From an uncultured Opitutia bacterium (lineage in GTDB: Bacteria > Verrucomicrobiota > Verrucomicrobiia > Opitutales > Opitutaceae), in assembly GCA_903902745.1 (NCBI GenBank), contig CAIUWA010000017.1, forward strand, positions 1-64,000: a DNA stretch of 64,000 bases. The letters run 5' to 3'. Below are positions 2,680-60,206 of this stretch, piece by piece. The position numbers and the translations under genes are program-made. How positions within the stretch are numbered: the first letter of the stretch is position 1; each line of letters opens with the position of its first letter. Under the pieces are notes generated by a model. That model saw only the letters and a program-made list of their open reading frames with translations. It was not told the DNA's origin and ran no database searches.

Positions 2680-3966
2680 TTATTTCCTCCCCGCCAAAAT
2701 CTCACCCGCCTTCGTCTCGTCGAACGCGCCGTCCCATTTTGAGATCACCAGCGTCGCCACGGTGTTGCCCATTAGGTTGGTGAAGGTGCGGATCTCCGAC
2801 ATAAAGCGGTCGACCCCAAAGATGATCGCGAGCCCGGCAGGCGGAATCTTGCCCGTCGTCTCCAGCGTGGCCGCCAGCACGATGAAGCCGCTGCCGGTGA
2901 TGCCCGCCGCGCCCTTCGACGTGAGCAGCATCACCGCCAGCAACCCGAGCTGCTGCACCAGCGTCAGCGGTGTGTCTGTCGCCTGCGCCACGAAGAGCGC
3001 CGCGCACGTGAGGTAGATGCAGGTGCCATCAAGATTGAACGAATAGCCCGCCGGCACCACCACGCCGACGACCGGCCGCGCGCAGCCGATCCGTTCCATC
3101 TTCGCCATCAGGCCCGGCAGCGCGGATTCAGACGATGACGTCCCGACCGCGATAAAGATTTCCTCCCGGATATATTTCATCACCCGCCACAGGTTGAACC
3201 CCGCCGCCCGCGCAATTGTGCCCAGCACGAGGAAGACAAACAGGAAGCAGGTGAGGTACACCGTCGCCAGCACCTGGCCGAGCGACACCAGCGCATGCAC
3301 GCCGAATTTTCCGATGGTATAGGCCATCGCGCCAAAGGCTCCCACCGGTGCGAAACGCGTGACGATCGCGACAATGCCGAAAATCATCCGCGACACCTGG
3401 TCCACCAAGTTAATCACCGGCCGGCCATGGTCGCCGATCCGCGCGAGCGCGCAGCCGGTCAGGATCGCCAGCAGCAGGACTTGGAGGATGTCACCGTCGG
3501 CGAAGGCCCCGACAAATGTCTTCGGGATGATGTTGAGCAGGAATGTGACCGTCGACTGTTCATGCCCCGCGGAGATGTAATTGGCCACGGACTTGGTATC
3601 GAGCGACGCCGGATTGGCGTGCATGCCCGCGCCCGGTTTGAAAACATTGGCCACGATGAGCCCGATGAAGAGGGCCAGGGTCGTTACCAGCTCGAAATAA
3701 ATCAGCGCCTTCGCCCCGACGCGGCCCATGCGCTTCAGATCGCCCATGCCCGCGATGCCCGCCACGACGGTGGTGAAGATGATCGGGGCGATCAGCATCT
3801 TGATCAGCTTGATGTAGCTGTCGCCGAGCGGCTGCACCGCGATGCCCCAGTCGGGTTTTACATAGCCGACCACGGCGCCGAGCACGATGGCCGCGATTAC
3901 CTGCAGGTAGAGCGTGTCGCGTTTCTTCGGCGCGGCCGGGGGTACGGCGTCGGTCGGGGGTATCAT
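2680..3966 (-). CDS. dctA: C4-dicarboxylate/proton symporter, DctA type
   Basis: A 428-residue inner-membrane carrier of the dicarboxylate/amino acid:cation symporter (DAACS) family, of typical length. Diagnostic motifs are the serine-rich re-entrant loop TSSSESALP near residue 275, GYSFNLDGT, SKGAAGITGSGF and GVDRFMSEIRTFTNLMGN. The last motif matches DctA better than the glutamate carriers, so succinate, fumarate or malate uptake is likely; substrate choice is inferred. It is transcribed alone, and no Shine-Dalgarno sequence is visible. Confidence 0.93.
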   Translation of the reverse strand: MIPPTDAVPPAAPKKRDTLYLQVIAAIVLGAVVGYVKPDWGIAVQPLGDSYIKLIKMLIAPIIFTTVVAGIAGMGDLKRMGRVGAKALIYFELVTTLALFIGLIVANVFKPGAGMHANPASLDTKSVANYISAGHEQSTVTFLLNIIPKTFVGAFADGDILQVLLLAILTGCALARIGDHGRPVINLVDQVSRMIFGIVAIVTRFAPVGAFGAMAYTIGKFGVHALVSLGQVLATVYLTCFLFVFLVLGTIARAAGFNLWRVMKYIREEIFIAVGTSSSESALPGLMAKMERIGCARPVVGVVVPAGYSFNLDGTCIYLTCAALFVAQATDTPLTLVQQLGLLAVMLLTSKGAAGITGSGFIVLAATLETTGKIPPAGLAIIFGVDRFMSEIRTFTNLMGNTVATLVISKWDGAFDETKAGEILAGRK

Positions 3967-57737: not shown

Positions 57738-57792
57738 GGTAGGGCGAGGCGTCCCGCCGAGCCGCGGCTCACCGGGACGGTTCGCCCTACCT
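57738..57792. repeat. B-family repeat, inverted orientation
   Basis: GGTAGGGCGAGGCGTCCC to GACGGTTCGCCCTACC, the reverse of 2607-2661. It follows modC and is 20 bases from the insertion element. Confidence 0.85.
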
Positions 57793-57812
57793 CGAAGATA
57801 TTACTCAAGTTA

Positions 57813-57836
57813 GGGCGATAATATACTTGACTCAAT
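57813..57836 (+). repeat. Left terminal inverted repeat of the element
   Basis: Begins GGGCGATAATATAC; perfectly complementary to 60080-60103. The first ATG of the passenger ORF lies in its last bases. Confidence 0.95.
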
Positions 57837-57921
57837 GAGTCCGGTCGCCCAAAAACTCCCTCGTCGCGAGCCGAGGCTTCGGTTCCGAACGCCCTCCGAA
57901 CCGACCGCGCCCCCTTTTGCG

Positions 57922-58677
57922 ATGACCATCAGCTTAGGCATAATCTGTCGCAAGAGCATCGTCCTCGCCACCGACATGCAGGCCAGCTTTCCCGGCACCT
58001 CGCACAAGAACAACGAGGCTGACAAGCTCCACGAGTTTGATTTCGGCGGGGTTTACGCCGTTGTGGTTATGTCGGGCGGATTGGATTACTTCGACTCATT
58101 GGTGGAGCGGCTGGAGATGCAGGCCCAGAAAACCACCGTCAAGAACCAGCGCAGCATCCCGGACGCTGTTGAGGCGGCCATACGGGAGGTTAAAGCCAGC
58201 CTTCGCAGAAATTCAGTCCCGCCCAAGAAGGGCAAGGAATGGAGCCGCGTTTTCAGTGACAACGGCTGCCAAGTGCTCGTGGCATTTTGCCACGACGGCC
58301 AAACCCTTTCGCTCTACCGGGCGGATTTCTTAGACGGCCAAGCGCGCGCCGTTCGTTCGAGCTACGCCATGCTCGGCACCCCGCAGGTTTTGGTTGATTA
58401 CATTCTGGCCGAAGCCCGGCCCGATGAGATGAAAACCTCCGGGGGGATGGCGCTGGCCACCTACGTCGTACAAATGGCGAAAGACCACGACCAATTCTGC
58501 GGAGGCCGGACACGTCTCGCGATTGTTTACCCCGAGATTCCGTGGATTTTGGCCCAGACTGAAATCGCGCCCTTCGTCAAAGCCGCTACCGACTTTGAAC
58601 GCAGCAACATCGGAAGTTGGTCCAAGAATCTAACGAAATTTCTCCCCAAAGACATCGACGACACCTATGAACACTAA
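57922..58677 (+). CDS. Proteasome-beta-like Ntn hydrolase carried by the element
   Basis: 251 residues from ATG 57922; the frame also opens at ATG 57835 with a 29-residue leader. After the initiator Met the chain reads TISLGIICRKSIVLATDMQAS. Counting Thr as 1 puts Asp at 17 and Lys at 34, close to the proteasome beta triad Thr1, Asp17 and Lys33. VVMSGGLDYFDSL and the later helices fit the four-layer fold. It could be a self-activated peptidase or amidase; substrate unknown. It overlaps the transposase start by 11 bases, so translation is coupled. Confidence 0.75.
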   Translation: MTISLGIICRKSIVLATDMQASFPGTSHKNNEADKLHEFDFGGVYAVVVMSGGLDYFDSLVERLEMQAQKTTVKNQRSIPDAVEAAIREVKASLRRNSVPPKKGKEWSRVFSDNGCQVLVAFCHDGQTLSLYRADFLDGQARAVRSSYAMLGTPQVLVDYILAEARPDEMKTSGGMALATYVVQMAKDHDQFCGGRTRLAIVYPEIPWILAQTEIAPFVKAATDFERSNIGSWSKNLTKFLPKDIDDTYEH

Positions 58678-59620
58678 AACTGATTTCCCGGAAACCCTCA
58701 TCGAGGCTGTCCGCTACTTCGCCGATCCGGACAACGCTTTCAACTTTCTTGTTGAGCTGCGCTGGCCCAACGGGGTCAAGTGCCCACGCTGCGGATCAGA
58801 GGACGTGCGCCCCATCGCCAACCGTAAGACGTGGGATTGCAAATGCTGCACGGAGAAGAAGCAGTTCTCGATTCGGGTCGGGACGATTTTCGAGGACAGT
58901 CCACTTCCGCTCGACAAATGGCTCTGCGCGATCTGGATGATCGTCAACGCCAAGAACGGAGTTTCCTCCTACGAAATCTATCGTGCTATCGGCGTGACGC
59001 AAAAGACCGCTTGGTTTATGCTGCATCGCATCCGGACGGCGATGCAGACCGGCTCATTCGAGAAGATGAAAGGGGAAGTCGAGGTGGACGAGACCTTTAT
59101 CGGCGGCCTCGCCCGGAACATGCACATCGACCGCAACAAGCGGCGGGGCCGCGGAACAGGTCACGTGGGGAAGTCTATCGTGGTTGGGCTGCTGGAGCGG
59201 GGAGGCGAATGCAGCAAGGTAAAGGCGATCCACGTTCCCAATCGCCGCCGGCAGGTGGTAGAGGCGAAGGTAAGGGAGAACGTTGATCAGGGATCAGAGG
59301 TGTTTAGCGACGCCCTGCCGTCATACAACGAGCTTACGCCGGACTTCCGCCACCAGTTCATCGACCACGCGGAGAAGTACGTCGAGGGCAACGTGCACAC
59401 CAATGGCCTTGAGAACTTCTGGTCACTCCTGAAGCGGACGCTCCGGGGCACGTACATCAGCGTCGATCCGGAGCACCTCTTCCGTTACCTCGACGAACAA
59501 ATGTTCCGGTTTAACAACCGCAAGGCGAGCGACGCCGTCCGGTTCCTGATGGCATCGGCCTCCATTGTGGGCAAGCGCCTGACCTACGAGCAACTGACCT
59601 CTGACGCCGCCCCGGCCTGA
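58667..59620 (+). CDS. IS1595-family DDE transposase
   Basis: 317 residues. N-terminal zinc ribbon C39-x-x-C42 with a second cluster CKCC at 58-61, then the RNase-H-like core: D141 (EVDETFIGG), D215 (FSDALPSY) and E249 in NGLENFWSLLKRTLRG. That composition is the IS1595/IS1016 family (ISXO2-like domain). Translation probably restarts from the overlapping passenger. It moves the element bounded by the repeats. Confidence 0.95.
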   Translation: MNTKTDFPETLIEAVRYFADPDNAFNFLVELRWPNGVKCPRCGSEDVRPIANRKTWDCKCCTEKKQFSIRVGTIFEDSPLPLDKWLCAIWMIVNAKNGVSSYEIYRAIGVTQKTAWFMLHRIRTAMQTGSFEKMKGEVEVDETFIGGLARNMHIDRNKRRGRGTGHVGKSIVVGLLERGGECSKVKAIHVPNRRRQVVEAKVRENVDQGSEVFSDALPSYNELTPDFRHQFIDHAEKYVEGNVHTNGLENFWSLLKRTLRGTYISVDPEHLFRYLDEQMFRFNNRKASDAVRFLMASASIVGKRLTYEQLTSDAAPA

Positions 59621-59624
59621 CTCC

Positions 59625-59783
59625 ATGGAATTAAAACCGAACTCCAAAGAGGGCCAGCGCGAAGGGAAAGAGGCTTTCCAGCGGTTCCGGGCGATGGCCA
59701 GCGCGTTGATCCGAGTGCCCAAGGCGGAGATCGACGCCCAAGCGAAGAAGAACGCCAAGCGTGCTGCTAGGCGAAAACCTTGA
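59625..59783 (+). CDS. Small basic protein next to transposase
   Basis: 52 residues beginning MELKPNSKEGQREGKEAFQRF and ending in a Lys/Arg/Ala tail. Four bases after the transposase stop. Small helical basic proteins of this kind accompany IS1595-type transposases; the function is unknown and DNA binding is a guess. Confidence 0.7.
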   Translation: MELKPNSKEGQREGKEAFQRFRAMASALIRVPKAEIDAQAKKNAKRAARRKP

Positions 59784-59796
59784 CCCATGAATCCAA

Positions 59797-60063
59797 ATGC
59801 CCGACGCCGAGCCTCCCATACTGGCCGCTGCAAAATATCCCGAGTGGGGATTGATAATCGTCGGTCCGCTGTCCTGTCTCGCGCCCGCGGTGAGTGCGCT
59901 CCACGTCGGACTCTTGATCTCAGGGGCATTTTTCTGGGGGAAACGGCCACAGAAGAAAACGAAGTATGGGACGGTAGGTTTTGTGCTCCTGTGCATCGGT
60001 GCGGGCCGAGGCGTGCTCGCGTTGGGGATGCTAGCGATGGCAAAGTTAATGGGCTGGCGCTGA
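59797..60063 (+). CDS. Small membrane protein in the element
   Basis: 88 residues with two or three hydrophobic helices (WGLIIVGPLSCLAPAV, VGLLISGAFFW, FVLLCIGAGRGVLALGMLAM). No family recognised. It is the last ORF before the right inverted repeat and may be a second passenger. Confidence 0.6.
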   Translation: MPDAEPPILAAAKYPEWGLIIVGPLSCLAPAVSALHVGLLISGAFFWGKRPQKKTKYGTVGFVLLCIGAGRGVLALGMLAMAKLMGWR

Positions 60064-60079
60064 CCGGCGGCCGCTGGCT

Positions 60080-60103
60080 ATTGAGTCAAGTATATTATCG
60101 CCC
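60080..60103 (-). repeat. Right terminal inverted repeat of the element
   Basis: Ends ATATTATCGCCC; complementary to 57813-57836 at all 24 positions. Followed by AAGTTAGG. Confidence 0.95.
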
Positions 60104-60124
60104 AAGTTAGGACACTAACGCTCC

Positions 60125-60206
60125 AGGAGCCTGCTTGCAGGCGATTAAAACCCACGCAATGTGACAGGCGGTGGCTACGTCGAACATCGCCTGCAAGCAG
60201 GCTCCT
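60125..60206. repeat. L-family inverted repeat with perfect 21-bp arms
   Basis: Left arm 60125-60145 begins AGGAGCCTGCTTGCAGG; right arm 60186-60206 ends GCAAGCAGGCTCCT. The start codon of the next gene is in the 40-base loop. Confidence 0.92.

Follow-up and report, generated by a model that had tools for sequence, protein, structure and literature searches.

Siguier, Gagnevin and Chandler are said to have described, in 2009, an IS1595 family with passenger genes (tIS). Insertion sequences with such cargo are already known (PMC7986276), and proteasome-like proteins are known likewise: Fuchs 2021 (PMC8665760) reported 22 new proteasome-like families (WPH, PHI, PMI and others), with no genomic context hinting at their function, covered the phage-borne homologues PPH and AAH, and leaves transposon-borne members unmentioned, with no occurrence of 'transpos' in the text. 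In the window analysed here, a stretch of DNA of 64,000 nt in all, we find a mobile element of 2289 bp that combines the two. It resembles the IS1595-family tIS in its IS1595 transposase, its short terminal repeats, its 8-bp duplication and the position of its passenger, which adjoins the transposase, and it differs from them in that the passenger is proteasome-like. Passenger-carrying insertion sequences and proteasome-like proteins are each known; their combination is apparently unreported in the literature searched, which took in few subscription papers and contained no report of a transposon-borne proteasome-like member.

Boundaries and gene content of the element

The sequence-only reading had given the element perfect 24-bp ends. 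The match between the two inverted ends is indeed exact over 24 bp (57813-57836 and 60080-60103), but the true terminal repeat is 23 bp long and the 24th base is part of the target-site duplication, as the flanks show the 8-bp CAAGTTAG on both sides, which sets the element at 57814-60102 (Table 1). With a slash marking the boundary, the left junction reads ...ATTACTCAAGTTAG / GGCGATAAT... and the right junction ...TTATCGCC / CAAGTTAGGACAC.... Across the 3.29-Mb genome the terminal repeat occurs at these two sites alone, with up to three mismatches allowed, and a reversed control pattern has zero occurrences, so that chance is excluded; the transposase gene is also present in a single copy. At 58%, the GC content of the element is lower than that of the window (65%). 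The copy looks intact.

Table 1. Features of the element and its immediate flanks, in window coordinates.
Feature	Position	Strand	Basis
Target-site duplication, left copy, CAAGTTAG	57806..57813	.	Sequence
Left terminal inverted repeat, 23 bp, GGCGATAATATACTTGACTCAAT	57814..57836	+	End consensus common to related elements
Leader before passenger, open in frame from ATG 57835, noncoding	57837..57921	+	Codon-position GC 0.69/0.66/0.66
Passenger, proteasome-like Ntn hydrolase, 251 aa	57922..58677	+	PF00227, proteasome beta, invariant triad
Passenger residues Thr1, Asp17, Lys34	57925-57927, 57973-57975, 58024-58026	+	Triad invariant in homologues
Overlap of passenger stop and transposase start, 11 bp	58667..58677	+	Sequence
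IS1595-family transposase, 317 aa, zinc ribbon and ISXO2-like DDE domain	58667..59620	+	Pfam, NCBIfam
Small basic ORF, 52 aa, companion family	59625..59783	+	Recurs after transposase in related elements
Hydrophobic ORF, 88 aa, probably a membrane protein; coding likely, not certain	59797..60063	+	
Right terminal inverted repeat, 23 bp	60080..60102	-	Sequence
Target-site duplication, right copy, CAAGTTAG	60103..60110	.	Sequence

The transposase matches the Pfam family DDE_Tnp_IS1595 (1.6e-39) and the NCBIfam family IS1595 (6.9e-55), in both cases above the curated cut-offs, which bears out the type first assigned from the sequence, and the element has the transposase type, the terminal inverted repeats and the 8-bp duplication of the IS1595 family. 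The 11-base overlap reported between passenger and transposase was also correct (ATGAACACTAA). Codon-position GC is 0.57/0.41/0.72 in the passenger and 0.57/0.41/0.78 in the transposase, and differs in a neighbouring host gene (0.79/0.50/0.87). Beyond this pair of genes the element holds two more ORFs, the first of which, of 52 aa, belongs to a family that at least 39 of the 118 related elements have directly downstream of their transposase. To judge by the transposase family and the duplications seen, the transposase and this companion would together mobilise what lies between the 23-bp repeats, leaving the 8-bp duplications. The second ORF, of 88 aa, has no relatives in other elements; its product is hydrophobic, and it may be additional cargo or else work together with the passenger. 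A promoter scan gave a single match, as many as chance predicts, and an Rfam search gave none.

The insertion point lies 22 bp beyond a 54-bp palindrome (57738-57791), dozens of dispersed copies of which are found in the same genome and in a genome of the same genus (G001), where at C455 a similar palindrome is followed by uninterrupted TCAAATTAGGACATTA. When an exact empty site was sought in same-genus genomes, the matches were dispersed repeats only. On the other side of the element, a perfect 21-bp inverted repeat (AGGAGCCTGCTTGCAGGCGAT) at 60125-60206 has related copies in a second genome of the genus (G002).

Homology and start of the passenger

By sequence comparison, the homology of the passenger to the proteasome family is real. 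It matches PF00227 (Proteasome) at 8.7e-8, with 32.5 bits against a cut-off of 22.4 and positions 7-189 of the 189 in the profile covered, and the proteasome beta subunit of M. jannaschii at 2.4e-6 as a single sequence and at 5.4e-13 as a three-sequence profile, in which Thr1, Asp17, the Lys and the H3-H4 region align with the beta subunit. The N-terminus reads MTISLGIICRKSIVLATDMQ, and the Asp at 17 and Lys at 34, counted from Thr, are as the sequence-only reading had stated; the Lys stands at 34, and at 33 in the close homologues L115 and L003 (see below), because the passenger has one extra residue inserted. Across 11 divergent homologues the invariant columns are the Thr, the Asp, the Lys and two Gly, so that the loss of Thr from homologues, named beforehand as a point that would count against an Ntn hydrolase, was not encountered, and the proposal of an IS1595 element with a proteasome-like passenger is upheld. 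At the positions of beta Ser129-Gly130 the alignments place Thr-Pro, and at that of Ser169 a Cys, which is common to the passenger, L115, L003, L213 and L214.

With proteasome beta subunits, HslV and Anbu, the passenger shares a match over the whole domain, above the cut-off, and Thr1, Asp17 and the Lys; it differs from them in being at most 26% identical to them, as to anything found, and in the absence from the element of any gene for an alpha subunit or an AAA+ unfoldase. It also stands apart from the 20S beta equivalog, as it reaches 33 bits against the cut-off of 224 for the NCBIfam archaeal beta family and has no alpha gene beside it in the element. Compared by description, it resembles the families of Fuchs 2021 (WPH, PHI, PMI and others) as a divergent stand-alone homologue with a conserved triad and no propeptide, and PPH and AAH as a proteasome homologue spread by mobile elements, L115 being located in a predicted viral contig; PPH, however, is a protein of about 140 residues without H2, whereas the two passengers described here have 251 and 301. 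AlphaFold2 models built on two-sequence alignments have a pLDDT of 47 and 34, too weak to establish an alpha-beta-beta-alpha Ntn fold or to place the triad within it; in a Foldseek search with the former, Anbu and 20S proteasome chains rank first, though at a low TM of 0.3-0.4.

Self-processing of the passenger, which the sequence-only reading had inferred, is not supported. The coding start is Met-Thr in the passenger and in all homologues examined; Anbu begins likewise (MTYC in L215), and the short starts of HslV-like proteins are comparable. A start at 57835, with a propeptide of 29 residues, was considered and rejected, the in-frame stretch 57835-57921 being noncoding by codon-position GC. 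The passenger therefore lacks the propeptide of an autoprocessed Ntn hydrolase, removal of the Met suffices, and no self-processing is indicated. Removal of Met before a small second residue is an established activity of methionine aminopeptidase. Translation of the passenger would begin at Met-Thr, its gene and that of the transposase forming a single overlapping unit; the host aminopeptidase would then strip the Met and expose Thr1 as the nucleophile, which Asp17 and the Lys would assist, by analogy with proteasome beta, HslV and Anbu, in acting on a protein substrate. Propeptides are found only in proteasome beta and HslV (Fuchs 2021, PMC8665760).

Recurrence of the passenger and cargo of the carrier clade

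Single-sequence searches with the passenger in genome contigs, viral contigs, phages and plasmids gave no close relatives, and a second carrier was therefore found by way of the transposase, in scans from which 80 loci were taken from genomes (587 matches) and 80 from viral contigs. This element, L115, is located in the predicted viral contig IMGVR_UViG_3300044798_000072 and has its left repeat at 3022-3042, followed by a proteasome-like ORF that begins at 3094 with GTG-Thr, matches PF00227 at 6.9e-8 and encodes 301 residues, against 251 in our element. The overlap of its transposase with the passenger ORF is 8 bp long and has the +1 frame relation seen in the element at 57814-60102; the transposase ends early, while the passenger ORF is intact, and a right end was not found. 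The transposases of the two elements are sisters (support 100/99) with 66% identity, and the passengers are 26% identical, as expected for cargo under a selection unlike that on the transposase. The simplest reading of these sequences would be one ancestral pairing of passenger and transposase in which the passenger has changed faster; two separate acquisitions of a proteasome-like passenger are possible. A further inverted repeat of the element type occurs in the viral contig of L115 (L195:9126-9146), with no related transposase in the stretch fetched.

These two cases of proteasome-like cargo belong to one transposase clade, and the loci fetched by transposase or repeat pattern held none beyond L115. 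Nor was another carrier found in a sample of 388 genomes of the same phylum; about 790 genomes of two other phyla yielded distant homologues only, 50,697 phage records had no match to the passenger, and viral scans using alignments of other homologues had none either. The third close homologue, L003, comes from the same bacterial family and lies outside any IS1595 element; the passenger, L115 and L003 score 48-74 bits among themselves and lower against the remaining homologues. In L003 (465-2184) and L214 (1414-3255), from two different phyla, the proteasome-like gene is convergent with an IS1-type transposase, but as no inverted repeats were found around both genes, we do not claim an IS1-type element as a second carrier.

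The survey of the carrier clade comprised 161 loci (160 related transposase loci and our own), in 119 of which the element could be delimited (118 related and our own). The 118 related elements have the end consensus of our own, and the duplications match at 7 or more of their 8 bases in 98 elements and at all 8 in 94. They are often near-palindromic with an AT-rich mid-part (CTAATTAG, CAAATTTG, CAAATTAG, CTAATTTG), which suggests a target preference.

Nearly all delimited elements have extra, variable ORFs, mostly 3' of the transposase. Most of this cargo matches no family, and what is recognisable is mostly restriction- or toxin-like and hardly ever metabolic. In a set of 124 cargo ORFs, Pfam recognised 24 families, namely DUF3800 (17), GmrSD_N (4), DNA_methylase, D12 methylase, N6_N4 methylase and MvaI/BcnI (2 each), and also, among others, HNH types, Fic, RelA/SpoT, HEPN and DUF4145; NCBIfam agrees on the cargo families. 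As a control, 124 ORFs flanking the elements in these loci were compared; the contrast is qualitative, given that the tallies are of families, not proteins, and that the control ORFs are somewhat longer. The control gave 135 families, of which most of those listed are metabolic and N6_N4 methylase occurs in 3 ORFs. PADLOC gave 72 matches for it, all 25 of the matches listed being methylase models, against 209 model matches for the cargo, which include REase_II, HEC-06, NsnA and PD-T4-2. In the clade adjoining our element, the sole solid cargo match is DUF3800, a predicted RNase H-fold nuclease (PMC10910872), in 2 of 10 elements. The survey points to an IS group common among environmental bacteria as a small vehicle for defence-type genes, which may be a more general result than the passenger itself; if so, its unrecognised cargo would be a place to seek undescribed systems.

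Possible function of the passenger

The passenger is probably a mobile accessory gene, perhaps directed against viruses, and not part of the transposition machinery, as the related L115 element carries such an enzyme too and sister elements often carry restriction enzymes or toxin-like genes. That it is an accessory Thr-dependent enzyme of a defence or toxin type, with the element as its vehicle, is a reading for which we put the chances as even, and the one we favour over a regulator of transposition. Such an enzyme would benefit its carrier or lock in the element, whether by interfering with phages or rival elements or within a module of toxin type. The toxin or defence function already raised by the sequence-only reading is plausible, through association only, in the contrast of cargo families with flanking genes; with E allowed up to 1, none of the PADLOC models matched the passenger, and no described defence protein was matched. 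Tentatively, we extend this to a proteasome-family Thr enzyme that may be an effector, mobile and self-contained, of anti-phage or toxin type, and to a transposon clade that may be a general carrier of small defence genes across bacterial phyla and into viruses. A transposon-borne enzyme in a clade with restriction- and toxin-type cargo offers a concrete, testable functional hint for at least part of the proteasome-like family.

Somewhat doubtful, in our view, is a captured cellular gene for protein quality control or specific processing, either neutral or of use to the host in ways that do not involve phages. Proteins of the proteasome-like type occur widely, most of them without an assigned function (PMC8665760), and the location of L003 outside any IS1595 element would fit such an origin; against it stand the long-term association with one transposase clade and the near absence of metabolic genes from the recognisable cargo of that clade.

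The sequence-only reading had also offered an enzyme that serves the element, for example by clearing the transposase. Trimming or degrading the transposase or the 52-aa companion, the passenger would then set the frequency of transposition, and the gene overlap in an identical frame relation in both elements does suggest coupled translation. Yet elements with 52-63% identical transposases mostly carry unrelated cargo, often on the opposite strand, so that transposition needs no such enzyme, and in L115 the passenger ORF has stayed intact beside a truncated transposase; we consider this regulatory role unlikely. Most improbable is an inactive or ligase-like family member, for which the Thr-Pro and Cys at beta Ser129-Gly130 and Ser169 speak, as does connectase, a protein ligase that shows the fold to be capable of this activity (PMC8665760), since 11 sequences of low identity all keep Thr1, Asp17 and the Lys and helices 54-70 and 78-96, predicted in a low-confidence model, resemble the H1/H2 that connectase lacks.

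The accessory, toxin- or defence-type enzyme that we favour also draws support from the context of two distant homologues. In L212 (1312-2559) and L218 (904-2244), from two different phylum samples, the proteasome-like gene lies 3 bp downstream of a SocA/Panacea-like ORF; these ORFs are mutually homologous (36% identity), and their resemblance to SocA/Panacea is weak, below curated cut-offs. Domains of the Panacea type are those of antitoxins, and the adaptor SocA brings a toxin to the ClpXP protease. The gene order hints at a possible link of such enzymes with toxin control, perhaps as a toxin-antitoxin or adaptor-protease pair. A Fic-like ORF is located near the proteasome-like gene of L212.
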